Assembly: GCA_963930775.1 (NCBI GenBank)
Contig: OZ005691.1
Location: 3,720,001 to 3,784,000, forward strand
DNA length: 64,000 bases
Direction: 5' to 3'
Origin: Cliona cf. orientalis
Taxonomy: Eukaryota; Porifera; Demospongiae; Clionaida; Clionaidae
Under the pieces are notes generated by a model that was not told the origin of the DNA, searched no databases, and worked only from the letters and a program-made list of their open reading frames with translations. A program made the position numbers and the translations under genes. Shown here piece by piece: positions 6,633 through 55,589 of this stretch; positions within the stretch are counted from its first letter, which is position 1, and the number at the start of each line of letters is the position of its first letter.

Positions 6633-6871
6633 ATTGAGACTGGCTGCATACATCATAGTCATTATGTATGATGTACAGGACATTGCATAGAAGATTTTGA
6701 ATGATCATAATTACATGTGTATTAATTGAGGGGTTGGTGCATGACATGTGGGGTATGGTTAGTAGGGTAAGGGAGTAAAGTTGATCGGTAATACGGATCA
6801 AATAAACGGGGTATAACGGTATTACTTATGTATCCAGGGGTTGGTATTCACAAACGAAAATCTGGTTTGCA

Positions 6872-14932: not shown

Positions 14933-15056
14933 CTATAAAGATGTGCCATCAACATAGTTTTCTTAAAAAAATGACCATTTATGCTCAAGCTTTTAATATT
15001 TAGTGGCAAATCTTCAATATTCAAGCTGCATTCTGGTGTTGTCGATACACTACTAA

Positions 15057-28888: not shown

Positions 28889-31800
28889 TTAATGATTGTT
28901 AATAATTTTTCTTCTCTTTGGGAGAGGCACATTTTCTTTGTCGTTGATGTCTATTGATTCATCCATTTTATTTCTGCGACAGTTTCCTTTCTTCACATTT
29001 CCGCAAAGGTTGTTGATAACTCACAAAGCCTGGGTATTTCGGCAAAAGTCAAGAACACTAGGATTGTCATGTGCACCACCCCTCTGTCGCTGGCAACCGA
29101 AAAATTTTTCCAAGGGGTCTTGACATAGCCTTTGACTTAAGAATACCTTAACGCCAGGGAGAGTAAAGAGGTACTCAACCAGTTCAATGAACGAATGAGC
29201 TGCAAAAAATAAAATTAATGTCAATAATAGTTACATTAAATTTATTACAAGTTCATTTACCAGTCATTCTTAGGCCAAGAAGAGTTTCTCGACTTAATAT
29301 CATTCATTTCTGCTCACAGGGTTTGAAACCTTCCCTCTTGCTTACACTCTCTTCCCATTTGTCGAGGTAAGGAAGAAATTCCCTTTCTAACCACTGATGA
29401 AATAAATTTAATAATTATTGTACCACATGTACTAAGTTTTATAATTAGCTACCTTCAATCGAAAATCTTCACTTGACCTGAACGGAGACTGAAATGGCTT
29501 CCTGTTTACCTTTCCATTTGTGAAGTTTGACACATTCAGAGTGTCAAAGTACTTGTCGAACATTTCGGCAAATTTTGCACTGCCCTCACAAGCTGTGCCT
29601 CCGAGTAGATACAGTGCCTTGGAGACTGATTCACTTAGTACCTATACAACAAGGACAGGCATGCAGTGGAGTGGTATCAGACAGACAGACAGACTACCGT
29701 ACCCTAGCTGGTGCATGCATGTGCACATGCAGAACGTTATCTACAAATAAAAATTTTATACCTGTGTTGCAAGGTCCACTCTCATCTTCGAGAATGAACT
29801 CAAGTACATGTGCTCATACTTGAGCTTTGGAAGGATGCTTAATCCAGCCTGACCTCTGGTCTGTTCGTACAGGGTCACCAAATGCTGCCAGAGTATCTCC
29901 TTTCCATCATTCTGTGCATGGATATATTATACAGGTAGAGTATACACCTATTATTTTGTCATGAATATCGACTTGCTTACCCACGAAGTTCTACACTTAA
30001 GCTTTGATGCCCAACAATTTCTTGTTGTCTTCATGAGATGAGGTGGGTCAGAAAAGAAGAAAAAACTTCGATCATCTGTAGCATATGGATTTTTCACCTT
30101 ATACACCAGGCTTGCATTTGTGTCATGAAGCTTGATAAGTCGGCGGTTTGTAGAAGCACCATCACAAGTTACTCCCAGCACTTAGAACAAAATTAATGTT
30201 GATAGAAAATTTAACTAGTTATGCATGATTGTAGGATTTAATCCACATCTTTCAAGTCTGTAAACTGCCTCCCAGAAGGGATCAAATAAGAGATCCGCTG
30301 TCACATTCTTACAGGGAAATTGGGCATATGCAAATCGAAGGCTGGTGAAGAGCCCTCTAACCATGAAGACCATCATGGTTTTGGCCAACTCTGGACGTCT
30401 GGGAGTGGAAAATTGCTGAAGTGAGCGTTCATACTCAAGAAGATGAGAATTGGTGTCTCCGATGTTCACGAGGCCAACAAGTGCACCTGTAGTCTTATCA
30501 AAAACCAGATTCTCCCTGATGTGCATTTCATCCAGGAGCAAGATGACACATTTCTCATAGTCCTCACAGGTAAGGATTTTACCTGCATCCATGAGTTGCT
30601 CGTCAACATCAATACTGAAGCCTGTTGTAGCTGGAATGTAGTGAGTGTAGTCGCGCAGTGTACGTTGCGATGGGAGAGAAATGCATCCAGTTGATCTTAA
30701 TGTCTCATATGCTGATTGCGACTGGTGTCTGAGATAAAGACACCAACGAATCATTAGTGGGTGCCATCTCATAGAGTTAGCATTACGTTGCCGTGCAGCA
30801 TTAAGCTGTTGTTCCCAAAATAGTCTCTGAAATGAGTTTTGGTGGCAGGCAGGCTTCTTCTCTTCTTCTTCCATTATCTTCTCTAAGTCCTGGTGCATGT
30901 CACTATCAACTGTAACTCCAATACTTTCTGATTCTTCAGCTACTTTTGCTTTCAGTCGCATATTTTGCTTCCTGATTCTGCTGAGCTCTTGTTGAAGGTT
31001 TGCCATTCGTTTCTTCATTTCTTCTTGAGAAAGACTACTGTAAGGGGCACGACTTGAGACGGACACTCTGATCTCACTGGATCTAGACATCAAACGTTTT
31101 TGACGGATTCTCAGATTGGATCGAAACGACGAGCAAGCTGTACAGCGTTTACTTTTGCTGCCTGATGGCAGAATGAATTCACAGGAACTCGATCTGATTA
31201 TTGGCTGTTGCAATGACAATGAATCTTGGTAAGCAACTTGCTCTCCTGTAATAAAATAACAACAATTGACGTGGTGGTAGCTAAAGCATGCATGTGGGTA
31301 GTGGGCCTTAATTATAACAATGTTAGTACCTGCTCGATCCTTGAAAGCTCTTCCATTATTCATGTCAACAACCGCTTGGAATTCCGTTGCAGCATTACCT
31401 GCACATAATTGCCCAGTCGAGACAATATGCAGGGCCCTACTCACATCTTGCAAGCATGTGAGCGTATCAGGAAGGGAATCAAGTGCTCTACATTCTAGCT
31501 ACCTTGTTAACTAGAACACCGTAGCATGCCAACGTCCAGGTAAAATTGTCATCAATTGTGATGACGCAGGCTGGAGCACCAAGAATGGAATGTAGATTAA
31601 ACTTGGCAAGCATGATCTTTTCTGGGGAGGGGTGAGACTGTGTTAAATTAATCCAGTCATCAGGTAGACTACCCGTCTCTCTTGTCAGTCTAGACTGAAG
31701 ATGCGACAGATTGCGTACTGGGCATTCTCGGTACGATGAGGCAATGGGTAGAGAGACCACAAGCTCAGGAGGTGTAATCAGGCACAAAGGAACCGACACT

Positions 31801-35595: not shown

Positions 35596-36601
35596 CGACA
35601 GCCACACCCACTAAGTACGTAGATGCGTGACCAAAGCCAGCTTGACCTTTGACCTGTTTGTTCGCAACTCCGATTCAGCGCTCATCAATGGGTCCTAGAA
35701 ACAGTGGGTATTTCATAGATAATTTCTGACTCTAACAGGTCATGGGCACATTTTTGTGCTGATCAAATCTAATTTGAGGTACATGTATACGCCTCAGAAC
35801 TAACTCTAAAAAGGTCACGGTGTGGGAGGCAGTTTCCAGTCATCTGGTAGCTGCGTTGGGCGGACGAAGCTAGCAATCTGGGTGCCAGCTCCTTCACTGG
35901 AGTAACTCTAATAGTCAAGTGGTGCTACTGTAAATAACGTGGGGACCATAGTTCTAGTCTCGTGCCCAGCCTTTTAACGAGACTACCTAGTCTCACGCGG
36001 AGGGGCTGGCGCGCGAGACTAGAGACTACCATAGTAATCATGAAGCAACTTGCATGTACCCCGGTAGGTAAAATTACTGAAATGCGCCCATCAAATAGAG
36101 TCAGATATTATCCAACATTTCACCCGCTTCACATAAAAATTTCAAGATGTATACTGATAAAAGGAAGACCGTATGACAAGGTGTATGCTGAGCTGAAGTC
36201 ATCATATAGGAGACAAGGAAAGGGGTCGTCACACTCCGGGAGCGGGTACATGGGTATATAGCCGGCCGTAGCCTGTGAGCGTCTACCGGCAGTGCATCCG
36301 AGTCTATGCTCTCTGCACCTAGTGAAACACACTGGTAAGTTACCTACTAAGCATGAACAAGGGGTAATATATTATATTAAAGCCCTTGGCACGAGATCTA
36401 GTAACATATACCACATAATTCTGTACGCACACCATACTGATGTGCATGTGCTGCTGAAGGGACCCAAAAAGGGATATTAATTAATTCTATGATGGTATTA
36501 TTCTGCTGGGCCAGCCTATTTACACACATAATATAGCCAATGGTCTGTACCATGGCAGACGTTGAAGGAATCTTGCTCATTTTTTTTCAAGTTATTGCTA
36601 G

Positions 36602-39600
36602 ATGATGGCTAGCCGTCGGAAGAGAAATATCATTCCTCTCAATATTGTCCAAAAACGAGGACGGAAACACCACATATCTAAAGAATTTATGAATATCACT
36701 GTACATTCAGCAGTAACAGCTCCACAGTCGCCTCACATCTCGGGGTCTGGATCGGTAAATCACGGTGACGGTTGTATTCAAGATCCTATGCCAGAATACT
36801 TGGCTGATCAATTGGAAGACCAAACGAGAATGTTGGATTCATCTCAAAGTCAACATACCAAACGCCAAGTTAAGCAGAGCGAAAAGTGGAGAGAGAGTAT
36901 CCATTCAGCTTTGAAAGCCGTAATTGAAGGAGAAAGTATGCAGAGTGACGAAACATGTAGTAACTGTGGTGCCCCAGCAAATGTGCGTTGTCGTCAGTGT
37001 GGGCCATATGCATTTTTTTGCTCTGATTGTGGTGTAAGTTTTCATTCGAGATGGAATTATCATCATTATCCTGAGCTATGGAAGGTATGAAATTGGATCA
37101 AATCTGTTACAGACACACTAATACTGGTAAATTATACATTTTATTCGCTTTCATGTAGGATGGCTGCCAGTTTGTACCATTGATTCTGCCAATACCAAGT
37201 ATCGTAACGCATAAATGTGACAGTCAAGCACATAGGAAGGTTACATGTTTCCACATTGAAGGTACGTTCACTTGTATACTGAGAATTTTAGTACTGCTAC
37301 TGTTTAATAGGGATTCCAAGGAATCTAAGTGTTGCATTTTGTCACTGTGAATCTGATATGGTGACACTCATACGACTTAATTATTGGCCTGCCACACCCT
37401 CTCGTCCAAGCATTGCATTCTCATTTTCTCTACTTGACTGGCTGCAAGCTCTACTATTGGAGTGTCAAGTGCCTGTTCAAGATTTTTCAAATGCTCTTGA
37501 GTTTATTATTGCTACCAAGTATGACAAGGTACTTCTCACATTATTATGATTTCTTTAGTTTATAACACTGGATATGTGTAGATGCCGTGCAACATCTACC
37601 CTGTTCTTATTGAAGCTTTTGAGGAATACAGGTACATGTAAATGCTTGACTTTACACTGTCGACAGACTTGAACCCTGGTTCATTGTTTTAGATCACTGA
37701 AGGGCTCTATTGATCAGCTACAAGACATTTGTGATCTTCGTAAATTTGCTGTGTGCCCTGCATGCCCAAAGGTATGGGTGTGCAATCAGTAACAATACAG
37801 TATTCTTATGTTGTATGCTTGTATGGTATAGGATGATGATACACTACTTACTCTCTCAATTGATGCCAATTTTGGGCTTTGCCGAAAGCGATCAGCCGGA
37901 AAGAGTGTTGGTGGTCCAAAGACAAAGAACAAGATATTTATTGATCAGACAGAGGTTGACAATTATATGCAGAGTTATTCTTCCCATTCTAAAACTGGTG
38001 ATGTGGACAAAGTAAGCTGTACAATATGTTTTTGGCAATACAAATAACTAACTGATAACAATGCAGGCTTGTACCAACTTTTTAGCTGGCCATATGCTTC
38101 GCTCTAAGTCACGCTATTCAGCCTTGGATGAAACAGCAGTCATGGGAGCTGCCTGTAGACATGAGTGTCCTATACCTTGCTTCTTCAGCCTCAAGCATGG
38201 AGAAAGGTCAGTATTTTGTTATATGTATGTGATTAATGTGTTTATGTGAGGCGTATACGTACATGTATGTGTGTCAGATGGGATTAATTGGGGTTAAGAT
38301 AAACCCTAATATAATTGTAGGGAAGAAGGGTATGATGAAATCCCTCCTTCCCCCCAATTTTATGCTGTTAACACAACAGATTCTATAAATAAATGCACCA
38401 TACTATGTAGGATTGCTTACTCTGTGTACTTATGTGAGCAATTGCAACGGCTATTCCCGAAGCAGAAAGTGCAGCTAATGTATGATATTGCATGCAACCT
38501 TGAAAAGCACCTGAAGGTAATGACCATCTTAATGGTGTCTAATAGCTATTATTGTTTGAGTTTTTGTGTATTATATAGACAAATGGTCGACTGGATATAC
38601 TAGAAAACTTTGAGTTTGCAGTTCCTGTTTTTCATGCATATGGACATGAGTCTGCTTGCCAGGTATGGTAGCTTAATAAGGATACCAGGAGATATGTCAT
38701 GACATCAAGCACATTGTAAATTTGCAGGTTAAGTACAACCCTCGAAATATTCTTGGATTTGGTTTGAGTGATGGTGAGGTTGTCGAGCGTGTATGGTCAT
38801 ACTTACGGCGATTTGCAGCAATGACTAAAGAAATGCATCCGTCCCATCGCATTGACGTCCTAAGTGATGCACTATCATACTACCGTCTGAAATCTGCACG
38901 TAATCTTTGTAAGTTTCATATCTATAGTTCATGATCACGTAATGTTATTCTGAGTTTCAAAAGGTAAACTGTTGCCAAAACGATTGATAAATTCTAGAAA
39001 AGTAGGCCAAGAATCCACTCACCAGCTTCAGGAACTCATGGATAACTCTCCTGGTACAGCACTGAAATTCAACCTGCATGCACATGCATAGGATTATTCT
39101 TGAACGTACATGTAGAGTCTATATGTGGACAAGATGTTGCTCAATGGGCTGAAGAGGAGAAAACAGAGTTAGGACATTCCCAAAGATCAGAACCAGGTTA
39201 AGCTAGCTAACGATATTATGGTATTGATGTTGATTTTATTATCTATGTGAACACAGAGGAAGAGAGAATACGAAGTTTGGCAAGGGAGCGATGGTTTCTT
39301 CTCAGGCTCAAAAGCAAGTATGCTGGTATGTTAAATATTGGCATGTTGCATGTGCATTCACTTTATTGTAACTATTTTGTAGCTGGCCAATCAATAGCCA
39401 TCAGGCTCTCCAGAAGAATTAACGTGGTGACCAAACAGTTGAAATCAAAACTTGAAATGTTTAACTCAAAACATCCACCTGCTGAAAGGATGACATGGGA
39501 GGGTGTTACACGACTTGATGCTGATCAGCCACATACTATTCCACGCTGCTCAAAATATCAGGCAGTACGACTATTTTATAAGGCAGCTCGAGCTAACGAA

Positions 39601-40615
39601 GAAGAATTCAGGATTATTTCAGAGATGCGAAACACTATTAAGCATTACTTGTGTAAGCTTGAAGTGATATCTGCTGCAATACATGATATTGAACAAAATG
39701 GTGTTGCAACTACTTATCAAAAGGGAGCGCGGTCCCTACTTTTCACACGAAAAAGACAGTGTGAGCTTGATCTAACAAGGCTTAACTCATTCATTAGTCA
39801 TGGCGATTTTCCTGAATTAAGTCACTACCTTACAGAAGACGCTGACTGTGAAGAGCCTGAATTAGTACCTGAAGAAATTGATGAAGATCCCATATTCAGT
39901 TTCGACAGTAGTGGGCTGGAAAGCAGTAACTGTTGCCAAGATTGTCCTGAGATACACAATCTAGACTCAGATGAGCTTGGCGCAATGTCCACGAGTTCAG
40001 AATTTGCTGATGATGAGGATTTTTTGGACTGTTCTGATCAGGAATGGGAAGATTTACCAGCACAGACAGCTCAAGGGCCATCAAACCCACCACTCTTGTG
40101 CCAGTCTTCTGTTAAATCGAAGACCCCTACGCTATCGTTAAATTCAAGGCAATCGTTGAGGTGTGTTAACAACCGAGAACCACTGTTAGTGCCAACGGAT
40201 ACAGATACAAAGGTGCTAAGTGACTGTCCTTCGTCAAGTAGTGATGAGGAAGAGTTAGAAGTTCAACATTGGAGAAAGGAGAAATTTCTTCGTGAGGAAT
40301 ACATTCGCTCTACCATGGTGAGATACCACTATAATACTATTATTATTATTATTATACACTCACCATCAATACTCATGCAGAAACCAATTGAATTAGATGA
40401 TGAACAACGGCAGATGTTGAGCAAGATAAAGGAGGGTACAGGTATGTGGACATGCAGTTCATAAATACAATGTCATGTATGACATAATATTATTTGAACT
40501 ACTGTATATAGGACATGTATCAAAGCCATCGAGCTTTCTCAGAAAGATACCAGGAGAGAATTGTAGGAGTGCAGCAAAATTATTAGCTAAAGGCATGAGA
40601 AGACATAAATCATAG
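36602..40615 (+). CDS. KDZ transposase, outer element
   Basis: Sixteen exons traced with GT/AG borders: 36602-37084, 37159-37261, 37311-37528, 37582-37631, 37693-37770, 37831-38010, 38068-38206, 38411-38516, 38579-38662, 38728-38909, 38963-39052, 39116-39196, 39256-39325, 39383-40317, 40381-40441 and 40512-40615. The N-terminus is basic, followed by a Cys cluster (CSNCGAPANVRCRQCG, FFCSDCG), the CxC zinc-binding module of KDZ proteins. Core motifs are LSIDANFGLCRKRSAGK, ALDETAVMGAACRHE, LMYDIACNLEKHL and the hallmark LSDGEVVERVWSYLRRF followed by TKEMHPSHRIDVLSDAL. The Asp/Glu residues in these are the expected RNase H-fold catalytic set. The C-terminal exon 39383-40317 is helical, then acidic and disordered. 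No stop or frameshift was found. The promoter presumably lies in the left arm. Confidence 0.85.
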
Positions 40616-40781
40616 TGACTGTTGTAATGTGACAATCCATTATACAACAATAATAATGATATTATAATAATCAGACAGTGTACTATTTATCATAATAATT
40701 ATCATGAAAGCTATTCAATACATGTTTTTCTTGATCGTTATTGATCCATCACTTGTGTAGCTATGCATGCAGCTGCACTGC

Positions 40782-43607
40782 TTAGCACGACTGCATCTTA
40801 TTTAAGTTATTTGCTGGCCATGCTGTGAATTGTCCAGCCATGAGCGTTTCTTCGTCATCAAATGAGCTGACAAACACAGGAGAAGTGTTGGGTTGAATGT
40901 ATTCAATTATGACTTTAACATAGCCTTGGGGTATAGTATGTCCATGAAGATTAGATCCTTCAGTCACAGTACCCGTTCCAACAGACTTTCCCTTCTGCAT
41001 GAGCATCACCTTGTCTCCACACATAAACTGTACTGCCGGCTCAATTGCTTGCCTTGGCTGTTTGTATTTCTTCGTTTTGAAGTATGTGTGATCATGCTCT
41101 AAAGGAGCTGCAGAAGAGGGTTTGCTAACTTTGGCATGGCTCGACTCCACTATACATGCAGGTGGAGATGCTGAGGAGGCACAGTGGGAAAATTCTGGCA
41201 TAAGAAGAACGTTACAACTTTGGTATGACACTTTTTGAAGAAATGATGACGGTAGTGCTACTCTTCCATCACGTACATGGCTAGTAAACAAAAAAAGATT
41301 TCATGGTTCATGTACAATGTACACATAATATCTAGTGACTGTGTGTACATCGGTACAAGTAGTTACCTTTGTGCGGCAGTCTTTACCACAGATGATGGTA
41401 ACTTGCTTGCTGTATAGAGAAAATTGTCTTGACAATCATAATTATGGATCACCCATGCAAGATCGAGGGCCATGCAGGTACATGTACAATGTACATGTGT
41501 GTAGTCACGTGCAATGAGAGCAATGGTGGTTATAGAATGAGCCCACCTGAGATTTATGATTGCTACAATATTATATACATGAGGTGCATAGTTGGGCTGC
41601 TATCATATACCTATAGCTACGTGCAGCTACATGTACAGTACGTGGAACCCCTCTATAGAGGCCACATTTCTATGGGAATGAAATCTTCGGCATTATAGTG
41701 GGACTCCTTATCTCAGGGGTTGTTTCCTATTTCAGTAATGTAGTCGCTCAATCAATAAGTGTATAATACATGGTACATGTACATAATAATTATATGTGCC
41801 ATGTGTACAATTTTCCAATTAAAGCACACACTGTTATATATCACTGTACATGTGACGTCAAGTGTACGTGTATAACAATTACAAAGTGCTTGTACATACA
41901 CAATCGTCATGTATATACATGCACATACATTGTACATGCATGTACACATACATTACATGTGCAAGTACATATATTATTATCTCTCTTTCTCACCATAGAG
42001 TAAGTTTCAAATTCTCTCTATTCTCAAGAATACTTTTGAGAGTTGACTTTCCATATGATGATGGATGTTTAAGTGTACAGCTAGTAGGCAATCCATTAAT
42101 CTTCAGGCCATACTCCTCTGTTTTTGAGTATGGTAGCCTAGCCTTGTCATCGTGGATGTACTGACCTGATAGAACGTGGCAGCAAATAATATGGAGTTGA
42201 CTGTACAGTATAGTTTGTACATACAGTACTTCATGTGCTTACCATACAGCTTGTTGAACAATGACTCAATGGCCTTGCGTAAAGAATCTTTGTTATCCAG
42301 CTCAACACCACCTTCAGTTGGTGATTGTGTCTTCAAGAAACCTGTATAATGTTGACAAGAGTTATGTAAGGGTTTGTTATTAGTATAACATAATGTAAAT
42401 ATACATGAAAATTCAGTAGGTTTATCTTCTACTACCAATCCAAACCTAAGGGGAAAACCATCTCACTGCCTGCTCAGGCAAACCTAATTTAAGCAAAAGG
42501 CAGAGCCACATAGGTGCCTAGCCTTGAGAACTAGGGGTGGCAGGTTGAAAAGCTCTTTTGTTCCATGGAAACTCTCCCTACCCACCTAAGTGGCTCATGG
42601 ACATGGGCAGCATGCATATATGACCATAATTACACATTCAGGGAAATTAACAGAATCTCCAGTCAGTATTGTTACTAGCTACTACATAATTTTGTAGGGG
42701 TTAACTCACGAATCCCGGGTGTTCATGCAGGAGCTGGAGTAGTCTACTTCTTAAGGCTCTGGAACTTTTTGTATTAGTTGTTGTAACCAATGGCCCTAGT
42801 TATATACGTTTCCATGACATTGTACATGTACATACCTGACTCTTTTGCCGATAAGTATCCCAAAAAGGAATACGGTACATATGTTCCACAATCTTTCAAA
42901 AATTGAACCCCTGCCTCTGTTCCCACCAACGTAGTGCTCACCCTCATGCACTACTACATACATCAAATGACAATCTTTGAGGACTTCGGCATGTTCACTC
43001 TACAGATGTATAATATACACATTATCATAATGTATATGGCTGCAGAATCAGTGAGCAAATCCAGAGATTATAAATGTACTACATGTAGTACCATTTCTTG
43101 CAGATGACTGACAATCTTTTTGCATTCCTTCTTCACATTTACTTCTTTGAGATTTCCACTCTTCTTTTTAGCATCTTCATTGTACTTTTGTCTTTCTTCC
43201 TCAGATAAAGATTTCCATAAGATACTAGATTCTTTATTTGATGAGGCCAAACTTTGACTTGTGGACCCTGAATAAAATGATTGTTGGTCTCTATAATACA
43301 TGTAATGCATAAATATACATGTATGTAATGTTATGTCATGTTTTATGATACTAAATTGCTGGCAGCGAACCATATCTGCTTAACATTATGACTGTATCCT
43401 TTCCCACTCCATTCCCATACCAAACAAAAAATCGTAAATTGCAGTAAGATATTATTATTATACTATGCCTAGCATAATTTTCGAATTGTGGGTAATACCT
43501 TGTGATCGTAAATATTCTCCATGCCATAAGTTGTATCCAGAAAGGGCTCTCATCTTTCGGAGAGGCTTTTTCACATCACACGATGTAGATGTCTTCCTCT
43601 TGCTCAT
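40782..43607 (-). CDS. HMG box + GTF2I-like repeat accessory gene, outer element
   Basis: Exons on the minus strand: 43607-43499 (ATG; LSGYNLWHGEYLRSQ), 43267-43092 (WKSLSEEERQKYNEDAKKK), 42999-42836, 42343-42247 (DSLRKAIESLFNKLYG), 42167-~42003 (KARLPYSK, HPSSYGKSTLKSIL), ~41404-41370 and ~41280-40782 (GTGTVTEGSNLHGHTIP, final AGQFTAWP). The first two form an HMG box split by an intron. The two middle exons form one TFII-I-type repeat: LR-x(2)-ESLFNKLYG, then VPY/LPY, then PSSY and the IL helix. The C-terminal domain is shared with the inner-element gene but unassigned. One extra base near 42918-42926 shifts the frame in exon 3. It converges with the transposase gene (167 bp between stops). 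A DNA-binding partner or regulator of transposition is inference. Confidence 0.72.
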
Positions 43608-43690
43608 TTCTACACAGACAATGAATAGATCACGCATCTTCTATCACAATCACTGTAAAGTTAGTACATGCATGTGTATGTACTGTATAT

Positions 43691-43763
43691 AATAGTTATC
43701 TGACAGTAAATTGGGGTGCATGAGATGCATGGTCGAATGCACCCAAATTACTATCAGATAACT
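43691..43763. repeat. Short hairpin, possibly a minimal MITE
   Basis: AGTTATCTGACAGTAAATTG with GGGTGCAT is mirrored by ATGCACCC and AAATTACTATCAGATAACT. About 73 bp, immediately upstream of the accessory gene's first exon. Confidence 0.6.
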
Positions 43764-44764
43764 ATTTTGTTGGTAGTTGACCTCTGTTCACCATTGGTCT
43801 ACTTTATGATGACCCAACCCCTTCCCATAGCTGGCAAATTGCCTATAAACACTTTGGTTGCTAGGCAACTACCAACAAGTACACGTACAAGTACGAAGCA
43901 AGAAATGACATGTACACCAGGTGTAAAATTAATACGGACTAGACTACAACAATGAACTCCAGTAATAAAATACATGGATGTGTATCTACAAGTCTTTTAA
44001 AGTCTGTTACCACCACTCACTAGCTTAACCACAATCCCACTAATGTGCTGTCCATGCAGATTACTCATAATCTTAATTAGCATTTACTATCAATCAAATT
44101 GCAAAGTGAACTGCTACATGTGTTGCAGGCACAAACATTGTGGCTCTCCTACTTATTACTCATTACACAGAACATCAAACTGTACACAATATTTATTTCA
44201 AGTTGTCTCAAGGGAAGATGAGGTGACTACAAATGATACATACATGTAGGTACTAGCGCACAAATTAAATAGAGTATATCAAGAACTCTCTTAATAGTGA
44301 CAGTGACACTAAGGGCCAGCTCCCTGCCCTGAGTTGTCTTAACCGTGGCAAGGCCATATTATTATCATGGTTTCAACCCCCCTCCCTGTTATGTTTAGAA
44401 TGTGCAAGCCATTGACACAAGTGCAACGCATACATCAAAATTGCCCATACATTTTGGGCAATGCATCAACTTACTGGCACACACCGAGGCATTACGCTCA
44501 CTCACGTCATAGTCTGAACTTGCAAGTCACCAGACTATTCTAATGTGATCAGCACTGGCAGGCTAGCCCCCTTACACATGAGGAAGTATCATGTCCATAC
44601 AGAGCTTGGCATGTATGATTATGTGACAATAAATTATCGTTGCTACATAATAAACCACACACAACATGAAGAGTTAGCTCCTGATTGATCAGCGCACATG
44701 CATAAGTAGCCTCATACCCAGGTCCTTTGATGGAAAATGGGTCTGGTACCTATTGTACACACAT

Positions 44765-44944
44765 GCGCCAACTACCCGAAGAAAATCTAGGGTGCCACAA
44801 AAGACTGTATGTTAGCTGCTTCACCCTCCTCCCATGGCCTAGGGTACGAGGATACACCGACATCGCTTCATACTCTAGGTGCGAGAGAAGGGCAAAATAG
44901 CATAGTCGTTGCGGCACCCCAGATTTTCTTGGGGTAGTTGGCGC
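44765..44944. mobile_element. MITE with GCGCCAACTACCC ends
   Basis: GCGCCAACTACCCGAAGAAA at the left is mirrored by TTTTCTTGGGGTAGTTGGCGC-type sequence at the right, each followed by TCTAGGGTGCC or its inverse. 180 bp, near the inner border of the outer element's right arm. Confidence 0.7.
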
Positions 44945-45447
44945 AGGGTATCATCGGAAAATGCAACAACCCAGCAGCACTGAAACACCGTCTACAACCA
45001 CACCACCCCTTGTGTCCCGCAAATAGGCTGGCCCAGCAGAATAATACCATCATAGAATTAATATCCCTTTTTGGATCCCTTCAGTAGCACATGCACATCA
45101 GTATGGTGTGTGTACAGGATTTTCCTCTCCTCAGTGAATAATTATGTGGTACGTTATCTCGTGCCAAGGGTTTTTTAATATATTACCCCTTGTTCATGCT
45201 TAGTAGGTAACTTACCAGTGTGTTTCACTAGGTGCAGAGATCATAGACTATGCACTGCCGGTGGACGCTCACAGGCTACGGCTGGGCTATATACATATAT
45301 ATACCCATCATGGTACCCGCTCCCGGAGTGTGACGACCCCTTTCCTTGTCTCCTATATGATGACTTCAGCTCAGCATACACCTTGTCATACGGTCTTCCT
45401 TTTATCAGTATACATCTTGAAATTTTTATGTGAAGCGGGTGAACATT

Positions 45448-45540
45448 CACCCGGTTCTCGCGAATTTTTCCGGGTAACTACCTATTAGTTGTTACCGTTA
45501 TCGCGAGGTAATGCCCGTGTCACATGTGAACATATTACCG
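45448..45540 (+). repeat. Inner KDZ element, left terminal inverted repeat
   Basis: Pairs with 55490-55582. Preceded by the target duplication GAACATT. Confidence 0.88.
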
Positions 45541-45665
45541 TAAATATCCAATAAAGAGAATTTATAGAAATATTGTCGCTTACGTTATCAGTCAGCGTGC
45601 GTACGTACGTAGTCCAGATCCACCTAGCTGTGGTGTGTGGTTCCAGCCATCAGCTGATTGCGAGA

Positions 45666-48600
45666 ATGAATCGCTTACGAAGGAAGCGTAAGCCAGACTC
45701 AGTGAGGCTAAACCTAGTGACTTCCCGCACACGTCGTGGACAAGGCAAAATCAATATCTCTCGTGTATCTGTTCCACTAATATTACCTGAATCATCCCAA
45801 GGTGGTCCGAACCCTAATAGTACCACCGGACATCGTGGGGCTGGAGAATTGGATTTGCACCTCAGTGACCTACCTGATGAAATGGATTTAAGTTGTTTGC
45901 ATAATGAACAGGGCACGTTAACCACAGCACAGTACAGCAAAAAGAGAACCCATGAGGACCGAGAAGAAAAAGCTGCAGAATCATGGGCTAGATTACGAAG
46001 GGGATTACTCGCATCATTGATTGAATCATGCTGTCATCCATCAGAAGTACCATGCTGTATGTGCTCTGCAGAATCATCACAAGTGTATTGCCAAGATTGT
46101 GGTGGATACATGTGTATTCAATGTGCACAGAAGTTACACACTCATATCAACATCTTCCATGCGCCTGTTATGTGGGATCCCATGGTAAATGCTCTTCAAT
46201 GCATTATTGTATCAAACTTAAACTTAACTTGTAGGGGGAAGTTTACATTTCATACCCCTTGCCAGTGAGTACACTTTCAATGAAAGAACACCAGTGTACT
46301 ACTTCGTACTTTCGGGACATAATATGCATTGGTGGATTAGGTAAAGAGTGAACATAATACGATTAAATTTTTATGCTACGATAACTATTTTACATGTAGG
46401 CACACAACGTCGAGTCCAGTTTCAGTTTTGTGGCTGCTTCAGTGAAGCTGAAATTTTAATTAAACTGGGCTACTTTGCTGCTACACCTCAGCGTCCACAA
46501 CTTGCCTTTCAGTTTCAGCTTCTAGACCTCTTGGAAGCATTGCTTTTAGAGTGTCAGGTATCAGTTAAGGACTTCACTGCTGCTCTGGATTATATATCCA
46601 GGTGTCCCCTTCAGGTGACCTAAAAAAGAAAAATTAAGCTCACATTAATATATACATCTATTAATATTATAGATAAATGAAAAGAAAGATGTGAAGTTTT
46701 ACAAAGTCATGCTTAACTGCTTTGAGGAGTATAGGTTGTTGTCGCTGTACATTGCCCTCTCTATTCCATATTGTGTGTGTATAGATATTTGAAGAATGAG
46801 CTCCGACATATGCGTGTTGTGTGTCCTGAGCATACTGATGGCACCGAGTGTCCAGCGTGTCCCAAGGTATGAGTTTTGTTTCATCCTGTGTTCGCTTGCA
46901 GTACATTGTATGTTGAGTACCTGTAGCATTATTTTATTCTTTATGTATAGAGTGAAGGCACGCTTGTTTTGGCTATTGACGGTCACTTTGGTCTATGCCG
47001 GAAAAAAAGTGCCGGAAAGAGTGTAAGACCACCACTTCATGTTGGTGTATACTTTGAACCTCAAGAGAATATTGATGAATTTGTGAGTACCTACACCGTG
47101 GGAAAGGCAACAGCAGTAAAAGTACTTCCACTATGCAATATGCATAAGATTGTACAACTGTACATGACCTTTCTTTCATGCAGGAGTGCAATGAACTTCT
47201 TGCAGGTAATCTGCTAAGATCAAAGACACGATATAAAGCCTTAGATGAGACAGGTGTCATTGGACTCGTGTGTCGTCACGAGTTTCCGTATCGATTATAT
47301 AATCTCCATCATGGTGAACGGTTAGTGTATATTATACATGTACGTGTTTATATAGCTATCTATGACTGGTTCTATAATATTATTATAGGATCTCTTATAT
47401 TGTTTATGCTCTGGAGATGATCAAGGAGCGATCAAACCAACTCTCTCAAGTGCTACTACTGTATGATGTAGCCTGCCTTCTCAAACGTCATTTACAGGTG
47501 TTCACACATACATGTAACTATTATTACATGCATTCTAGACACCTTGATCATAATTATGTAGGGAAAAGGAAAGACCGACCTTCTTAATTTTTTTAGGCTG
47601 GCAGTTCCCGTATTTCATGTATATGGGCACAAAGTGGATTGTCAGGTATTCCACTGATACTGCAGTATAGATGCATACTCTTGTTACAAAGGATAAATTT
47701 TGTAACTTGGACATACAATGTCATGTAGCCACGTTGATAATGTAATTGTAGATGTTGATGAGTCCACGCAACAAAGATGGATTCGCTTTGTCAGACGGAG
47801 AGACATGTGAGAGGCTGTGGTCATTCATGAGAAGGTTTTCTCGTATGACCAAAGAAATGCGACCTTCTCATCGAATTGATATACTCACAGATGCCCTACT
47901 TCACTTTGCCAGGCTCACTGTCGTTAGCCTAAGTAAGGAAGGATTAGTGGTACATCTTATGAAAGTCCACGGGGTTTCTGGCTAATGATAGTGAGTGACC
48001 CCCCTCCTTTAACTGCTTCTAGGTTGCTATATTTACTGGATTTGCATGGGTGTACACTGGTGTTTAGTGATTTCTGGTGTACATGTTGTACATGTAATTG
48101 CATACCACATGTAATAATGTGTACATGTAGGGACTTTGCTTCCTAAACGATTGACAAAAGCTGAAAAAATTGCTGAAGATTCTCAAAGAAAGCTCTCTGA
48201 ACTCTTCACTAACTCCCCAGGTCAGAAGTTGTTACCACAGTTGCATGTACATTGTTTATTGGTGCTACATTATTAAACACTGCACATACTACTGATAATT
48301 ATTATTAATGCAGTGGACTTTGGAGAAAAGGAAATCTTAGATTGGCTCGACAGTGAACAAAAAGCACATCATACCAGAGGTTCAACCCTTTTGTGTGTGA
48401 TGACTACACTAGTCTAGTAACAGTTACTACATACTTATAATTAGATTCTGATCAAAGGACAAAAGTTTTTGAAAAGCTAGGAGTTGCAGCCCGAGAACGG
48501 TGGTTTATGCTGATACTGAAAGCCAAGTTTGCAGGTTTTTATACTACATTAATTTTGTGTGTGCATATTCATCGTGATAACAATAATATTCATAGAGGGA

Positions 48601-50717
48601 CATAGCATGGCTTCTCGTCTTTCACGCACAATTACAACTGAATCCAAAAGGATGAAATCTCTTCTCCTTGAGTACAACAGTATTGTCCCTGTAGAGGATC
48701 AGCTTTCATGGGAAGATGTAACAGATTTGTCCTCATCAATCTGGCTTGCTCCTCAGCAGGAAGATGACCTACCCGTTCCTAGGTCAGTACGGCTTGCAGC
48801 TATTGATGCTCTGATGAAGAAGAAACGAGCAATTGAGGAACAAGATTTGTTGAAAGTGGAGATGGAAAATGTCGTACGCTTTCACCTTCAGCAACATGCT
48901 TTGCTAGGTAGCACTATTTCCCTCCTCCAGTCTGTACCATCATTGTTCAACCGGGGGGCTGTGTGTCTTCTCAAGATAAAGCAGCACCAATACAAAACGA
49001 TGATAAAGGGTTACATTCAGTCATTTCCAAGGTCACTAAATATCCCAGAAATCCCTTTTTGTACAGAGGATTGTACAACAGATGTTTCCAGCTCATTACC
49101 GTCCACTCAATCCAACATCATCGAATCATCTGACGATGAGGAAGATGGAGACTCGCCTTGCTTGAACCACACGAATGATCTTGATAGTTCTAGTGATGAC
49201 AGTAAGTCCAATCATGTACCGTATTCTTCTTATGTACGCATGTGATGTATGTGTATTTGTTGGCCATCGCCTAGCAACCAAAGCTTTTTTTACCAGACAG
49301 GTGTAGGTCACCATGCTTCTCATGTAATAAGGGTCACATACAACTATTACATGTGTGTATGTGACATGTATTAATTTGTGTGTGTACATGTATGTCTGTG
49401 TGTGTTGGTGTACATAATAATATTATTATAATTGTGTATGTGTATGTAAAATCATTATGTATGTATGTATATGTGTGCGTGCACACGTATTTGTATGCTG
49501 TATACTCTACACAAATGATTAGCACCGTAGATGTGTAGCACATGTAATGCTTTTGAAAACCATGCAGGTCAGTTTGACAATGAGCCGTATCCTAATTTGC
49601 TGCCAGTCACTCAGTTAAATGTACCATTGGTTCAAGATGAAGTACTAAATGGCTCAGAGAAAGACATAGGAACTATTAAGCAAGGTATGTGTTCATGTAC
49701 TTGCATGCACAATGTGGACAGGAAAAGCTACACTACAAAGACTCATGTGACTGCTGTATGGCTCATTCATGGTGTGCTTGAGCAAGCATTTAGGGATAGT
49801 ATAGATTTGATATTGACTATTATTATAACGTGTTGTTATTGTGTTTTAGGACTCAAGACAGTCACTTTACTTCCTGAATCACACACTTCTAAGTCTGCTC
49901 ATCTATCCTGCTCTAATGGTACTAGTGGTATAGAGAGATCACAGCCCAAATCACCCACAGCTCATTTCCCCGGCTCTAATGGTGCTAGTGCTACACTTAC
50001 ATGTCACTATAATGAGAGGTCACTATTACCTGAACAAGGTAAACTGCCAGTGTATAATAATAATATTATTATGATTATGCAGATGTGTATCTGCTGATCT
50101 CCGTACATTAATAATATGCTTTGTCTGCCTGTAAGCAGAATCATGTACCACTACACACGCACAGTGACTACAACCACAGTTTCCAGCATCCCTTCTCCAT
50201 CCCAATCAGATAGTGACAGTGGCAGTGATAGTGACGAATTTAAGCAAGCTCGTGATCGAATCAGATATGTGAAGGAGAAATTGGAGAGAGAAGAATTCCT
50301 ACAGGTAGGTCCTATAAACAATCATTCATAAGTATTGATTACTTATTGTTTTGTATGTATAGGGCATCAGAATGAAGGAACTCGAAGATATTGCTGCAGA
50401 GGAAAGAAAGGCTACAGCTCATGTGATAATTGAGGGAACATCTCGAGATCAAGTGATGCCTGTGTCTATAGCTGGTAAGTCATAATAATAGCTGTAACAA
50501 TGCAGCATAATAATAATAATAAATCCATGATCACACAGCCCATGGCCAAGCCAAGCGGAGTGGAGTTTATTTGCCACCCAAACGGACCATGTATCTGCAT
50601 CGTAGTAAGGAAGACCGAGAAAGAATAGTTAGACTGTCTAGAGAGAACATACAGCGTGAGAAAGTGGCTGAACGTTTAGCAAAGGGACCATACTTTAAGA
50701 AAAGTTGTAGCCAATGA
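45666..50717 (+). CDS. KDZ transposase, inner element
   Basis: Nineteen exons traced from the ATG at 45666 to TGA at 50717: 45666-46184, 46235-46340, 46399-46612, 46672-46733, 46785-46866, 46951-47082, 47183-47321, 47389-47498, 47562-47645, 47751-47931, 48131-48221, 48314-48379, 48444-48534, 48596-49200, 49568-49684, 49849-50038, 50140-50304, 50363-50473 and 50539-50717. The Cys cluster is CCMCSAESSQVYCQDCG; core motifs are LAIDGHFGLCRKKSAGK, ALDETGVIGLVCRHEFP, LLYDVACLLKRHLQ, LSDGETCERLWSFMRRF and TKEMRPSHRIDILTDAL. Exon order matches the outer transposase, and the two proteins are clearly related but well diverged, so these are distinct lineages and not a recent duplication. I saw no stop or frameshift. 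Predicted role: excision and integration of the element. Confidence 0.85.
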
Positions 50718-50799
50718 TGTGTGTTGTAATTATTATTATTCTGAAAAGGATTGACATCATTATATACAATATTATTATATTATTAATTTCAATACATCC

Positions 50800-53026
50800 T
50801 AATTAAGTGAGTCCACTTTCCAGGCGGTCATAAGTCCACTCATTAAGTAATCATCGTCGTCATCAAAGGGCCCTTTGAACTGAAGTGGAATTTCAAGTGT
50901 TTCATCACACATCTCCTTGATCGAGAGTTTCACATATCCATTCGGTATTTGTTCCATGTAGTTGTGTGCCTTCCATTACAGAAGCCTTGGCTACTGGCTT
51001 TCCTTCGTGGACAACAGTAACGATCGACCCTATACTTGGTTTCTTAAAGTTTGGCTTCTTAATCTTATTCAAGGAAGACTTTGGCAAAACTACAGGCGCT
51101 GAGTGGAGAAGTGAGTCATAGACATCCTTGATGTCTCCAGCAGCAGATAGCATTGTATTTGTGTACACAGCTTTCGGTCTTGGAGGGACTTTTATAGGTT
51201 CATTTAGAGGTTTTGAGTACGAGTGTTCAATCAAATGTGCTGGCAAGATTGCTGCACCTATATAAAGCACACCATGAGTGGTGAATAATATTATGATGAC
51301 TAGTGTCAGAAAGGCAATTTGCATACCAGTAAATGCTATGTCTTCTGCAGCATCCACAATGCGTCTTAGGTTTTCAGCACTAAAAGATGATGGTGGACAA
51401 AACTTAAGACCCTTTGGAAAACCCTTAACACACGAAGGTGAAATAGCAGAGTAAGGAACTCTTGCTTTTGGCTTGCCAACTGCTGCAGCTGTACCATAAC
51501 GTGCATAATAATGATAATAATGTATGGGGAGAAGTGCAAACATGAACCACTCACCATACTTCAAATTTAGTATACTTTGAACTGCTTTTCGTAGATTTTC
51601 CCATTCCACTCGACCTCTTCCACTACTTGCAGCTATGGCCGTCCTTTCTATAGTTTGTGCATGTATATTATGTGTAACCACCAATTGAGTCTTATGAAGG
51701 GTATATAGAAAGGTATTTGCATCAGAGTTTGCTATGCAGATACATCATGATAGTACAAACATGTGAACTAAGACATACCAGCATTCACAGATAGGAGAAA
51801 CTCTTCAGGTACACGGGGATGCTGAACAAAGTACTTCCTTCCCAGGTCGGTACCGCCACAATAGTTGTTTTGTCCATGACACACAACATACATCACCTGA
51901 ATCTGACACTGCTCAGCCCAGCAAGCCTACACATTACAATGACAACAATGACAATGTTATGCATTTCATAATATTACAGTGGAACCCCTCTGCAAGAACG
52001 ATTGAGTGCATGAACAATGAGGATACTATACTTATACATGTACATATATTATATGCACATGTACAACATATCACATAATATTATATTATACATACACAAA
52101 CATTTCTTAATCAAAACACTTCAAGACTATAGATGGTGTAGTATCAGGCATACACAGCTACATGTAAATGTATATTCTACATATACGTAGCCTGAAAAGA
52201 AGTTGCATATTACATTGTATATATGTTAAAGTGAAATATACATGTATACTACCCCTGTGTGGGTAAAAAAATTGAAGGACAAAGGACAAACAAGAAGGTG
52301 GCACAAGAGAGTAGGTACATGTATGAAGTTACATGTATGTACATACATTAGATTCCAAATTTCGAATTATCCAGGAAGCTTCCTTCCAAGACTTCTCTGG
52401 TTGACTCCTAATACCATTGGTGCCCTCTTTAGCACGTTCATAATAAGGCTCCTTTTCCTCTTCAGACATTTGGCGCCATCTTTCACCAACAATTTTATTC
52501 CTCTCTGAATGGGACTGAATCGATCTTCCCTCTATCAGAAAAAAAAAATACAGTAAGCCAAATATCTTGAGCATAAAAAACCTGCAGCCAAACAATGATT
52601 ATGTACGATGTCATAATAATTCTAATAATACATGTACATTACGCAGTACAGGTGTGGTATATATACAGTGGAACCCCTCTATAGTGGCCAACATTAGGAA
52701 ATGAAGTTCTGGCCATTATTTAAAGGGGTGGCCTATCTCAGGGATTTTCCTGTTATTATGACGAACGTGAGTGGCTGCCATAGATGGGATGGGCGCTCAT
52801 CAGGGGTGGCCATTAAACTATACTTGTTATCAACTATACAGTGTAGCAAATACACAGAAGTGCATGCATAAACATACCCTTTGATTGATAATATTCACCA
52901 GTGAAGATGTTGTAAGCATTAGGCTTTGTAACTTTTCGTGGGGGTTTGATATTCTCCTTTCCTTCACTGTCTGAAAGGAATCTTTTCTTGCCACTACTCC
53001 GCTTGTTGCCAATCCAGTTCTGTAGT
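50800..53026 (-). CDS. HMG box + GTF2I-like repeat accessory gene, inner element
   Basis: Exons: ~53026-52879 (KPPRKVTKPNAYNIFTGEYY), ~52531-52350 (SERNKIVGERWRQMSEEEK), 51931-51780, ~51696-51554 (ENLRKAVQSILNLKY), ~51488-51327 (KARVPYSAISP, VKGFPKGLKFCPPSSFSAEN, LRRIVDAAEDIAFT) and ~51258-50800. The HMG box is split at the same place as in the outer gene. The GTF2I-type repeat is stronger here, with V-x-G-F/M-P-x-G, F-x(2)-PS and the RRI-x-D-x-AE-x-I-x-F helix in order. The C-terminal domain (SIVTVVHEGKPVAKASV, then EGTQLHG) is followed by IPNGYVKL in a shifted frame; the break lies near 50949-50951, so the last ~50 residues need another frame. A 5' exon upstream of 53026 is likely. It converges with the transposase gene (83 bp between stops). 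Confidence 0.74.
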
Positions 53027-53503
53027 TACATACATGTACACATGACGTGTATAAGTATTATTATAATAATATAAGATAGTACAAAGATAGCAGTAACATG
53101 TTGCATTACAGGTGAGGTAAGTAGACATGCACACGCATGTATACGATGATACATAATTAGTGTTAGCTAAAAAATAAATACTTTCTTGCATGCAATTAAT
53201 AACTCTATTGAAAATCCAAGGCCTAATCCGATTGCTATACACCTACATATACATACATGTACACAAAACACCGGGCACACTGTACATGCATTATGCCGTA
53301 ATGTACGTTTGTACATGATACCACTGTACATGTACTTCCTGGTCTCAGCAGTTTGAAGAGGGGGCAGGGAGATCCCCTCAGCCCTATGTAGAAAAAGCCC
53401 GAGTACAAAGCGGAGGGTGGACACCCTGGGTATTCTCATCAACGGCCCAATTTCCCTGCTCCGTGTATGTACTAACATGAGGCACAGGCCAAAGTCTGAA
53501 TTA

Positions 53504-53566
53504 TATAATAATAATTGTTATTATACTCCTCATTGGCGCCCCCCCCCCCCCCCCCCCCCACAATAA
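53504..53566. repeat. Low-complexity tract with C run
   Basis: ATAATAATTGTTATTATAC followed by a C run of about 22 at 53538-53559. Confidence 0.7.
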
Positions 53567-53894
53567 TATCATACTTAGTCTTGTAACCAGGCCCAATCTC
53601 AGCTTGCATGCTGTTAGCATAAGCTAACAAAATAAAAAAAAAAACAACCTGCGGCAATCACCCGTGCCACCTCACTTGCTGAGTTTGCCCCCACCACCCC
53701 GGTACACTAGAAAGGCTATTTTGCACTAATCCTTGAAGGAACGCAACCTACTAAACATTCATACACACCAAGGAGTGTTAGCCAGGAAATCTTTTAGTTA
53801 GAGACCGAGCCCAACATCTCTATGCATTTAGCTCTCTAGAGCACGCACCCGTGCGCCTCTCTGCTGGGTTTGTTACATGTACGCATACATGTAC

Positions 53895-54143
53895 TGTCAC
53901 GCTGTCAACGGTCCCCCCAAATTTGTGGTCCCCCCGGACTGTCCACTGCGCTGTATTCGGTCCCCCCCAGGACAAATCCTGGCGACTAACACTGCCATAC
54001 AAACCCTTGAGACTAACCCTGATAACCATTTATACCTGAAACCCAGCCCCTAATCCCTCTCGTAATTGGCAGGGGGACTATGCATAGTCGCTATGGACAG
54101 TCCAGGGGGACCGCTTTCAGGGGGGACCACTTATAGTATGACA
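53895..54143. mobile_element. Fold-back element of the GGTCCCCC family, 249 bp
   Basis: TGTCACGCTG...GTATGACA with GGTCCCCCC units inverted at the two ends, flanked by GTAC on both sides (53891-53894 and 54144-54147). Same family and 4-bp palindromic target size as 15204-15954. Confidence 0.78.
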
Positions 54144-54253
54144 GTACACCTATTTGCCACAATACCACTTGTATACGTAGTTCAACTTTCATTCTACTCA
54201 ACTTTCATTCTACTCAGATACTAATAGTATACTAGGGAAATGCACAGCATTGT

Positions 54254-54616
54254 GGGGCGAGCCTGAGCGACAGTGATCATGCACAGTGATTTATGTTGTG
54301 CCATGCCCTTGAACTACAAACTATAGGCTGCATGATGCACGCTCGTAGACTGGCCTCTTTCTCTTCGGTCCACTCTGTGGCTAGTAAATTCTGTCTCTTA
54401 CAGCTTTTGAGCTAAGGCTCCGATATGCTTTGTTCAGCGTTCATAGCGCGAGCGATCAGATGCAGAGCCTGAATGTAAATTTGCAAGTCGTTGAATTAGA
54501 GCAGCATATATACGGAATGATGGACGTTGGGCGGGGCGTAACTAAGGACCGACGTACCATATATCTCAGTCGCGCAGTGCATTACCGTTTATGTGGGGCT
54601 CGCTCAGGCTCACCCC
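54254..54616. mobile_element. GGGGCGAGCC-ended element, inside the inner KDZ element
   Basis: GGGGCGAGCCTGAGCGA at the left, TCGCTCAGGCTCACCCC at the right (one mismatch). No coding domain recognised inside. Confidence 0.62.
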
Positions 54617-55103
54617 AATTAAAATTTATTAACAGTCATTGAAATGCTATATAGCAGTCTACCTACCCTTTGCTTAAGACCCTTTCATAATGAAGCCAGT
54701 TGAGCGTACATTGTTTTATCTTAAACTGAAAGTCGAAAAGAAAGTGGCAATGCCAGTTCACAAAGCGACGAAAACCTTTGGGTGTAAGCACAAATTTATT
54801 ATTGTGATTTGTTGACGACAGATGCAAGAACACAACGCAGAGGAACGCAAGGATAGGGTCCACAAGTGTCAACACAAGGTGATACAACGCAACACATTAT
54901 TTAGCGACATAATATTATGAATCGGCCTTAAGGATACAACTGCTAGCTAAGTATGGGTAGACTACCTAGCGCTATTATTACCTCACCACCACCAAAATTT
55001 CAATTATTTCAATATAGTGGGTCCTTCGATTCTCCCACCCAGCGGCCTACATGTAATTAACACACCGGCATCAACTACAGCCTTCACTCCAGCATCTCTT
55101 TTA

Positions 55104-55221
55104 GGATCAAGTGGCATAAATGGCACCCAAATTTTTTGCGTGCTGTTGTGACAGGGTTTCAGGTCACCGGTATCTTCTATGGCTGAAAATTTTCGCGGTG
55201 CCGTTCTTGCCACTTGATCAG
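55104..55221. mobile_element. GATCAAGTGGCA fold-back element, copy 2
   Basis: Inverse copy of 34042-34163: AGGATCAAGTGGCATAAATG at the left, CGTTCTTGCCACTTGATC at the right. It interrupts the sequence downstream of the homeodomain-like exon. Confidence 0.6.
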
Positions 55222-55262
55222 CTTGAGTTCAATACATACATCCTCTTGTATGGCCCCACCGT

Positions 55263-55414
55263 ACCTTGATCACTGAAACGTCGAGCTGTAGCTCCTCTGC
55301 AAGTGCGCCAATAGCTGCGGAGTTGGCTGCACCAGTTGATACCAAACCATCAGAATATGCAGCTTCCAATGAAGCCCTCTGCTCGGGAGTGAACACTGTC
55401 TTCTTACTGCTCAT
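55263..55414 (-). CDS. Homeodomain-like first exon near the right end of the inner KDZ element
   Basis: An ATG at 55414 opens 51 codons ending at a donor (ATCAAG|GTACGG). The peptide contains FTPEQRASLEAAY, then IGALAEELQLDVSVIKVR, which follows helices 1-2 and the start of helix 3 of a homeodomain (Phe, Leu and the VIKVR run in register). The next exon, which should carry WFxNRR, was not found; the fold-back at 55104-55221 lies just downstream. It starts 76 bp inside the right terminal repeat, so it could be a third cargo gene or a relic. The homeodomain assignment is moderate because only two thirds are visible. Confidence 0.45.
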
Positions 55415-55489
55415 AGCGCTAGCGCGAGTGGCGTCGTCCGATCAGATCCTGCACTGATTCAAAATTTCACCATCGATATATTAGATATT

Positions 55490-55582
55490 CGGTATTATGT
55501 TCACATGTGACACGGGCATTACCTCGCGATAACGGTAACAACTAATAGGTAGTTACCCGGAAAATTTTGCGAGAACCGGGTG
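55490..55582 (-). repeat. Inner KDZ element, right terminal inverted repeat
   Basis: Pairs with 45448-45540; followed by the target duplication GAACATT (55583-55589). Confidence 0.88.
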
Positions 55583-55589
55583 GAACATT

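Follow-up and report, generated by a model that had tools for sequence, protein, structure and literature searches.

The TFII-I family is linked to Williams-Beuren syndrome. In passages of PMC3493543, the I-repeats are called unique to the GTF2I, GTF2IRD1 and GTF2IRD2 proteins, and there, as well as in parts of PMC8155576, the region before the first repeat is described as a 'leucine zipper'. According to sections of PMC10641963, the host gene GTF2IRD2 has a hAT transposase fused at its 3' side, and many annotated relatives are misnamed hATs. For the Kyakuja/Dileera/Zisupton (KDZ) transposons, excerpts from PMC12730594 describe CA...TG termini and 7-bp duplications in fungal Kyakuja, two fungal Kyakuja families without TIRs, an 8-bp target duplication in Zisupton proper, and a TET/JBP dioxygenase gene as the cargo of fungal KDZ elements. 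The terms GTF2I, HMG, homeobox and TFII-I do not occur in the Pristionchus Zisupton paper (PMC9297572), and among the literature matches listed (titles and abstract openings, with few subscription journals) neither KDZ elements nor sponge genes were described as having a GTF2I repeat. In the present study, we analyzed two neighboring KDZ elements of a sponge together with their relatives in the same genome, and we give a probability of about 0.78 to the reading that their cargo is the second gene of a sponge KDZ transposon group, with a core, made of a domain termed X and a GTF2I repeat, as in TFII-I.

The window is the whole stretch of 64,000 nucleotides analyzed (C3:3720001-3784000, in a genome of 216.8 Mb in 149 contigs). 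KDZ element A lies at 36121..45441 and has TIRs at about 36121-36521 and 45021-45441 (arms of 401 and 421 bp, 87% identity), and the KDZ transposase domain PF18758 was matched in it at 38695..38877 on the plus strand (ORF match, E=2.3e-14). KDZ element B lies at 45448..55582, with TIRs at 45448-45553 and 55479-55582 (about 105 bp, 94%); its transposase has a CxC1/CxC2 cysteine cluster at 46345..46623 on the plus strand (CxC1 E=3.1e-15, CxC2 1.3e-11) and a PF18758 match at C3:3767758 (37.7 bits, cut-off 26.6). The terminal bases of the elements are 5'-CACCC...GGGTG-3'. By their PF18758 and CxC cluster matches, both elements are judged to belong to the KDZ transposons. Flank comparison placed the 5' copy of the target duplication of element A, AACATTT, at 36114..36120; the 3' copy is interrupted by the insertion of element B, and when element B is subtracted, AACATTT flanks element A on each side. 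Element B is bordered by the 7-bp duplication GAACATT (45441-45447 and 55583-55589), and because this duplication includes the last base of A, element B must have landed at the edge of element A. The sequence-only reading had called element A the outer one; the boundaries and duplications show instead that the two elements abut, with neither nested in the other.

Among ten two-ended copies of such elements, the 7-bp target duplication was exact in six (L010, L014, L016, L019, L020 and window B), the flanks of L009 and window A were identical at 6/7 positions and those of L021 at 5/7, and those of L012 were unrelated. The six exact 7-bp cases do not agree with the 8-bp target duplication of Zisupton proper. 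A binding-site-like repeat array was not seen in four subterminal stretches. That element B landed precisely on the 3' edge of its neighbor A (45441-45447) may reflect a preference for KDZ element ends. Other mobile sequences are present in the window: a reverse transcriptase ORF (PF00078, 4.4e-17) and, behind it, a frame whose N-terminal matches are weak and phage-integrase-like lie at 6806-9549 on the plus strand and look like a DIRS-type retroelement, and a TNP-like RNase H N-terminal domain at 30215-31498 on the minus strand (PF21787, 2.1e-12) points to a P-element/TNP-like DNA transposase. A 721-aa frame at 12783-14948 on the minus strand, with weak P-loop and Roc matches, is a candidate ROCO-like GTPase.

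The cargo is the second gene of its KDZ element and is oriented tail-to-tail with the first. In element A, the cargo gene (gene A, 43607-40782, minus strand) unites HMG-box exons and GTF2I exons in one gene. Exon 1 (43499..43607) holds the start and the first half of the HMG box, exon 2 (43092..43267) the second half, exon 3 (42836..42999) the TFII-I N-terminal-like X domain, exons 4 (42243..42341) and 5 (41994..42165) the first and second parts of the GTF2I repeat, exon 6 (41367..41409) a linker, and exon 7 (40782..41280) the C-terminal domain (LHG ... AWP). The motifs that the sequence-only reading had named were all found in these minus-strand exons; a homeodomain exon was not found in family A. 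Gene A was compared with six further copies (L009-L014, of which L013 is partial), and the L010 copy has all seven exons, GT-AG boundaries at 6/6 introns and an open frame of 418 aa with no indel. The GTF2I repeat claimed for this gene was confirmed, since spliced L010 matched PF02946 (GTF2I) at 47.8 bits (E=1.9e-12, cut-off 27); the direct Pfam match in the window (41999-42142, 35.3 bits) was the top of the 17 GTF2I matches in the genome, and in a PDB sequence search with cargo A the top ten matches were GTF2I chains (best 2d9b, 1.1e-6). The proposed split of the HMG box over two exons was borne out by exons 1 and 2, although the Pfam score of family A was under the cut-off (HMG_box_2, PF09011: 20.8 bits, E=6e-4, cut-off 22.4).

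The window copy of exon 3 contains a 1-nt insertion, found in none of the six other aligned copies, and its exon 5 contains, near the donor, a 4-nt insertion relative to L010, which was recognized by sequence comparison and appears as an exon-end gap in the indel alignment. Thus, the window copy of gene A is itself broken. As for indels among the seven A copies, L010 has none, L012 has an exon-end item only, which we read as alignment trimming, and the other five carry indels.

Cargo B, in element B, is a paralogue of cargo A (33% identical) with an extra homeodomain exon. Its exons, on the minus strand, encode the N-terminal part of the homeodomain (exon 1, 55265..55414), homeodomain helix 3 (NWIG) and the first HMG half (exon 2, 52878..53019), the second HMG half (exon 3, 52347..52531), the X domain (exon 4, 51779..51926), the first and second parts of the GTF2I repeat (exon 5, 51555..51647; exon 6, 51327..51488) and the C-terminal domain (exon 7, 50799..51257), in which the window copy has a 2-nt deletion; with the insertions in A, both window cargo copies are therefore frameshifted. 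Spliced cargo B matched GTF2I at 40.6 bits (E 3.3e-10 to 4e-10, cut-off 27) and HMG_box_2 at 39.0 bits (E 1.4e-9 to 1.6e-9, cut-off 22.4), and spliced L019 matched the homeodomain PF00046 at 27.2 bits (3.3e-6, cut-off 22.9). In a comparison of seven B copies that left the homeodomain exon aside, no indels were seen in L016 and L019; the damaged ones included L020 and L021 (6-nt deletion and stop), L022 (39-nt gap) and L023 (insertions and stop). Family D, with the domain order of B, occupies four places (L026-L029). It is absent from the six-frame GTF2I matches and was detected via the C-terminal domain; the gene spliced from L028 alone matched GTF2I at 32.9 bits (8.1e-8, cut-off 27), HMG_box_2 at 24.0 bits (6.5e-5, cut-off 22.4) and the homeodomain at 16.2 bits (0.009, under the PF00046 cut-off of 22.9). 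The profile check suggested in the sequence-only reading thus gave a significant GTF2I match for cargo A, together with HMG_box_2 scores above the cut-off in B and D and under it in A. Its wider proposal, that a GTF2I repeat fused to an HMG box is carried as cargo of a sponge-type KDZ transposon, is borne out by the exons, the Pfam matches and the element boundaries.

Family F is a single copy (L017), which has the homeodomain exon, ends after the GTF2I repeat and adjoins the strongest KDZ match in the genome, and family E (L018) is a decayed relative. The 17 GTF2I places in the genome comprise seven of A, seven of B, one E, one F and one host gene; thus, all but the last were assigned to KDZ cargo, 16 in total. 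PF18758 was not matched within 15 kb of E or of one truncated B copy (C7), and these two were placed in KDZ either by alignment with element B or by transposase-like frames recognized by eye. When KDZ loci were merged at 15 kb, 17 of 40 had cargo with a GTF2I or C-terminal-domain match (18 of 41 with the window elements split). At the 23 of 41 loci with no such match within 15 kb, either the cargo is dispensable for some KDZ elements of this genome or it was missed. In the protein collection searched, cargo relatives were few, two for A and four for the A/B/D profile. P0022, which is 49% identical to B, has the latter half of the repeat as well as the C-terminal domain; thus, the cargo exists outside the near-identical copies. 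The family B counterpart of the cargo A C-terminal domain was predicted to form a small beta barrel.

The host gene, H (L015 2127-5091, GTF2I match at C17:95218), has ten exons and encodes 454 aa in the order homeodomain-like, HMG-like, X and GTF2I, followed by a stop without the C-terminal domain, and no KDZ match was found within 15 kb of it. Its GTF2I match is significant (Pfam, 8.9e-9), and its HMG_box_2 match is below the cut-off (13.3 bits, 0.13). Pfam did not report a homeodomain in H. The corresponding part matched an engrailed construct (1.2e-5) and extradenticle (0.003) among PDB sequences, gave a confident three-helix model and also aligns to cargo B, and on this basis we call it homeodomain-like. 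A protein search with H found 17 relatives (E <= 1e-3, 34-68% identical), including those of Halichondria panicea (LOC135349615), Amphimedon queenslandica (LOC109581518), Dysidea avara and the glass sponge Oopsacas minuta (LOD99_8396); those labeled with an organism are sponges without exception, which points to a sponge as by far the most probable source of the DNA, and the relatives with the prefix Em are taken for Ephydatia muelleri. At E <= 0.01, the 13 aligned relatives matched GTF2I in 12 cases, HMG_box_2 in three, HMG_box in three and the homeodomain in none. By eye, no C-terminal domain was seen in the aligned host-type relatives, from demosponges to the glass sponge, and no HMG box in the Oopsacas relative. 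One relative, P0004, has 425 aa on a 1,417-base contig, and we infer that a gene with so many exons would fit such a contig only as spliced RNA. When a model of one host relative was searched with Foldseek, the matches were headed by ten GTF2I chains; the cargo model has pLDDT <50 in the GTF2I part.

Intron positions were compared on a common alignment of the host gene and cargos A, B and D. The introns at column 371 (phase 0) and column 513 (phase 1, within the GTF2I repeat) coincide in all four, and that at column 172 (phase 0, within the homeodomain) coincides in the host gene, B and D. Furthermore, the HMG introns (columns 250 vs 244) and the introns after X (columns 430 vs 427), all of phase 1, are equal in phase and at most six columns apart. 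The unshared introns are four further ones in the host gene and one or two in the cargo. From the shared columns and phases, the host gene and the cargo are homologous as intron-bearing genes, and since the host gene has this build and matching introns, the two share an ancestor. Thus, the idea that the fusion was a one-off join made within a transposon is contradicted by the build shared across a family of host and cargo genes, and because a sponge host gene has this build, the TFII-I-type family appears older than vertebrates.

The exon between the HMG and GTF2I exons, encoding X, had no Pfam match. The sequence-only reading had noted a conserved 'CHLMYVV' region here; the motif is present, but the reading missed that it belongs to the X exon, which matches the N-terminal region of TFII-I. 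It likewise overlooked the homeodomain exon (element B, families D and F and the host gene) and the host gene itself. For the comparisons, we used N-terminal sequences that we take to be those of vertebrate TFII-I and GTF2IRD1. In a search of 20,002 sequences with a profile of the A/B/D cargo X domains, the N-terminus of GTF2IRD1 ranked first (24.6 bits) and that of TFII-I second (19.1 bits), and the best of 20,000 shuffles reached 11.1 bits. The host-only X profile gave GTF2IRD1 5.9 bits and rank 6, with no separation of the vertebrate N-termini. In the reverse direction, a profile from the two vertebrate N-termini was searched in 4,782 frames (window and fetched loci). Ten X exons (four of family D and six of A) came first, followed by the host X exon, at E 0.037-0.33, with an unrelated frame next at 0.36; the ten are near-copies of two families and so are not ten independent matches. 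The broken window A exon, split between two frames, was at ranks 23 and 25, the six listed B X exons at 15 and 17-21, and F at 333. The TFII-I first repeat sequence used equals 2d9b in the PDB comparison. These profile results indicate that the order of N-region and then I-repeat is common to vertebrate TFII-I, the cargo and, less clearly when taken alone, the host gene. As judged from these comparisons, X and the GTF2I repeat together are the homologue of the N-terminal region and first I-repeat of vertebrate TFII-I/GTF2IRD1, and the cargo X domain matches the leucine-zipper region before R1 of TFII-I, as far as the N-terminal sequences used here represent it. Pfam found one GTF2I stretch in each of A, B, D, F and H, and this single repeat contradicts the TFII-I hallmark of several I-repeats per protein.

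As for the direction of transfer, all three trees are unrooted and had long branches flagged by the program, and uneven letter make-up was flagged in the full-length and X + repeat trees. In the full-length tree without vertebrates, H was apart from the four KDZ rows (78/89), A/B/D were together (100/99) and F was between. The X + repeat tree separated {A, B, D, TFII-I, GTF2IRD1} from {F, all H} (97/94), with H apart from F (85/73), and the repeat-only tree with PDB letters separated {A, B, D, vertebrate} from {H, F} (93/91), with A and B among the vertebrate repeats. The branches of the host gene were shorter than those of the cargo. With such unrooted trees, captures from hosts and domestications would both be compatible.

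One explanation, to which we give about even odds, is that an ancient animal TFII-I-type gene with introns was captured by KDZ elements at least twice, F deriving from a gene like the sponge H and A/B/D from a TFII-I-like gene, with the C-terminal domain added in the A/B/D line. The introns common to host and cargo are expected from such captures, host-type genes extend from demosponges to a glass sponge and the aligned ones lack the C-terminal domain by eye, and the F cargo likewise ends after the repeat and adjoins H in the trees. However, a single KDZ clade was not rejected (AU p 0.063 in the X + repeat tree and 0.237 in the repeat-only tree), and none of the 17 GTF2I matches of this genome was an A/B/D-type gene outside KDZ elements. 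The opposite possibility, which we regard as rather unlikely, is that the gene was born in KDZ elements, as their cargo, and underwent two or more domestications, an F-like cargo giving the sponge host gene and an A/B/D-like cargo vertebrate TFII-I. The unrooted splits in the X + repeat and repeat-only trees can be read in this way, as can the contrast between the GTF2IRD1 scores of the cargo and host X profiles; yet this history counts as many changes as two captures, and the splits and scores involve long branches, uneven letter make-up and N-terminal sequences that we take to be those of the vertebrate proteins. Moreover, since relatives of the host gene reach as far as glass sponges, a domestication would be very old. 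A doubtful extension is that the whole TFII-I family of vertebrates, with GTF2I, the Williams-Beuren gene, among its members, came from domesticated A/B/D-type KDZ cargo by loss of the homeodomain, HMG box and C-terminal domain and multiplication of the I-repeat, the sponge host gene being an F-type derivative. If this were true, a TIR-bounded accessory gene would be the ancestor of the vertebrate TFII-I family.

Second genes of two-gene DNA transposons, such as En/Spm TNPA and the Harbinger Myb-like gene, assist the transposases. The full cargo product is predicted to consist of a homeodomain, an HMG box, the X domain and a single GTF2I repeat, with a C-terminal domain, probably a small barrel, at the end. 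Because two or three modules of DNA-binding type have been retained in diverged KDZ families, they most simply serve the element. By analogy, the cargo protein may be a nuclear DNA-binding accessory factor for the movement, expression or targeting of the element, the most likely of the roles considered, though about as probable as not; the homeodomain, HMG box and I-repeat would make contact with chromatin or with the ends of the element, and the X domain would perhaps pair with itself or with the host factor. Several observations weigh against this reading: family A shows no homeodomain exon and has an HMG score under the cut-off, 23 of 41 KDZ loci have no cargo match, the B and F X exons rank low in the reverse search, the subterminal stretches show no repeat array, and pN/pS is high between some close copies.

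The main functional rival is mimicry of a host factor, in which the cargo, through the homeodomain, HMG and X domains it has in common with the host protein, would compete or pair with that protein, so that the element is targeted or its silencing relieved, and would not act in transposition itself. The architecture equal to that of the host gene and the low pN/pS between subgroups of A copies suit it; we consider it improbable, and the C-terminal domain, restricted to the cargo, is left unexplained by mimicry. In those comparisons, {L009, L010, L014, window} vs {L011, L012}, pN/pS was 0.20-0.32 in 8/8 A pairs, and the partial copy L013, outside these eight pairs, had ratios of 0.25-0.31 with members of the first group and of 0.58-0.67 with those of the second. 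The full set of 42 A and B pairs covered a range of 0.14-2.53, two pairs being without changes, and close copies, with few changes, reached 1.07 (A) and 2.53 (B). Although changes are few, this pattern fits purifying selection during the activity of the element and decay after insertion. These low subgroup values also speak against a third explanation, a functionless passenger picked up from the host, as do the domain order kept in the diverged A, B and D and the indel-free copies in A and B; the many broken copies, both window copies among them, would be expected of such a passenger, which we consider very unlikely.

Compared with the TFII-I family (GTF2I, GTF2IRD1 and GTF2IRD2), the cargo has the I-repeat, by the GTF2I profile, and a region before the first repeat that matches X, whereas it has one repeat, a homeodomain and an HMG box in front and a C-terminal domain. 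Host gene H resembles the cargo in domain order and in intron positions and phases, and differs in its shorter branches and in lacking both the C-terminal domain and a KDZ match within 15 kb. The occurrence of the N-region and repeat in several sponge lineages moves the family to early animals, and a TFII-I-type module as mobile KDZ cargo means that the family has passed between hosts and transposons. The likeness to GTF2IRD2-like hATs, in the part of PMC10641963 cited above, lies in the GTF2I name and a transposon only, whereas the KDZ elements of the sponge carry a true GTF2I repeat. With Kyakuja/Dileera/Zisupton, the elements share the PF18758 transposase and the CxC cluster, and with fungal Kyakuja, as described in excerpts of PMC12730594, CA...TG termini and 7-bp duplications. 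Unlike the TIR-less fungal Kyakuja of the same excerpts, elements A and B have TIRs of about 400-420 bp and 105 bp, respectively. The fungal KDZ cargo described there is a TET/JBP dioxygenase gene, whereas the sponge cargo is of TFII-I type; thus, beside that dioxygenase, KDZ elements gain a new class of accessory gene.
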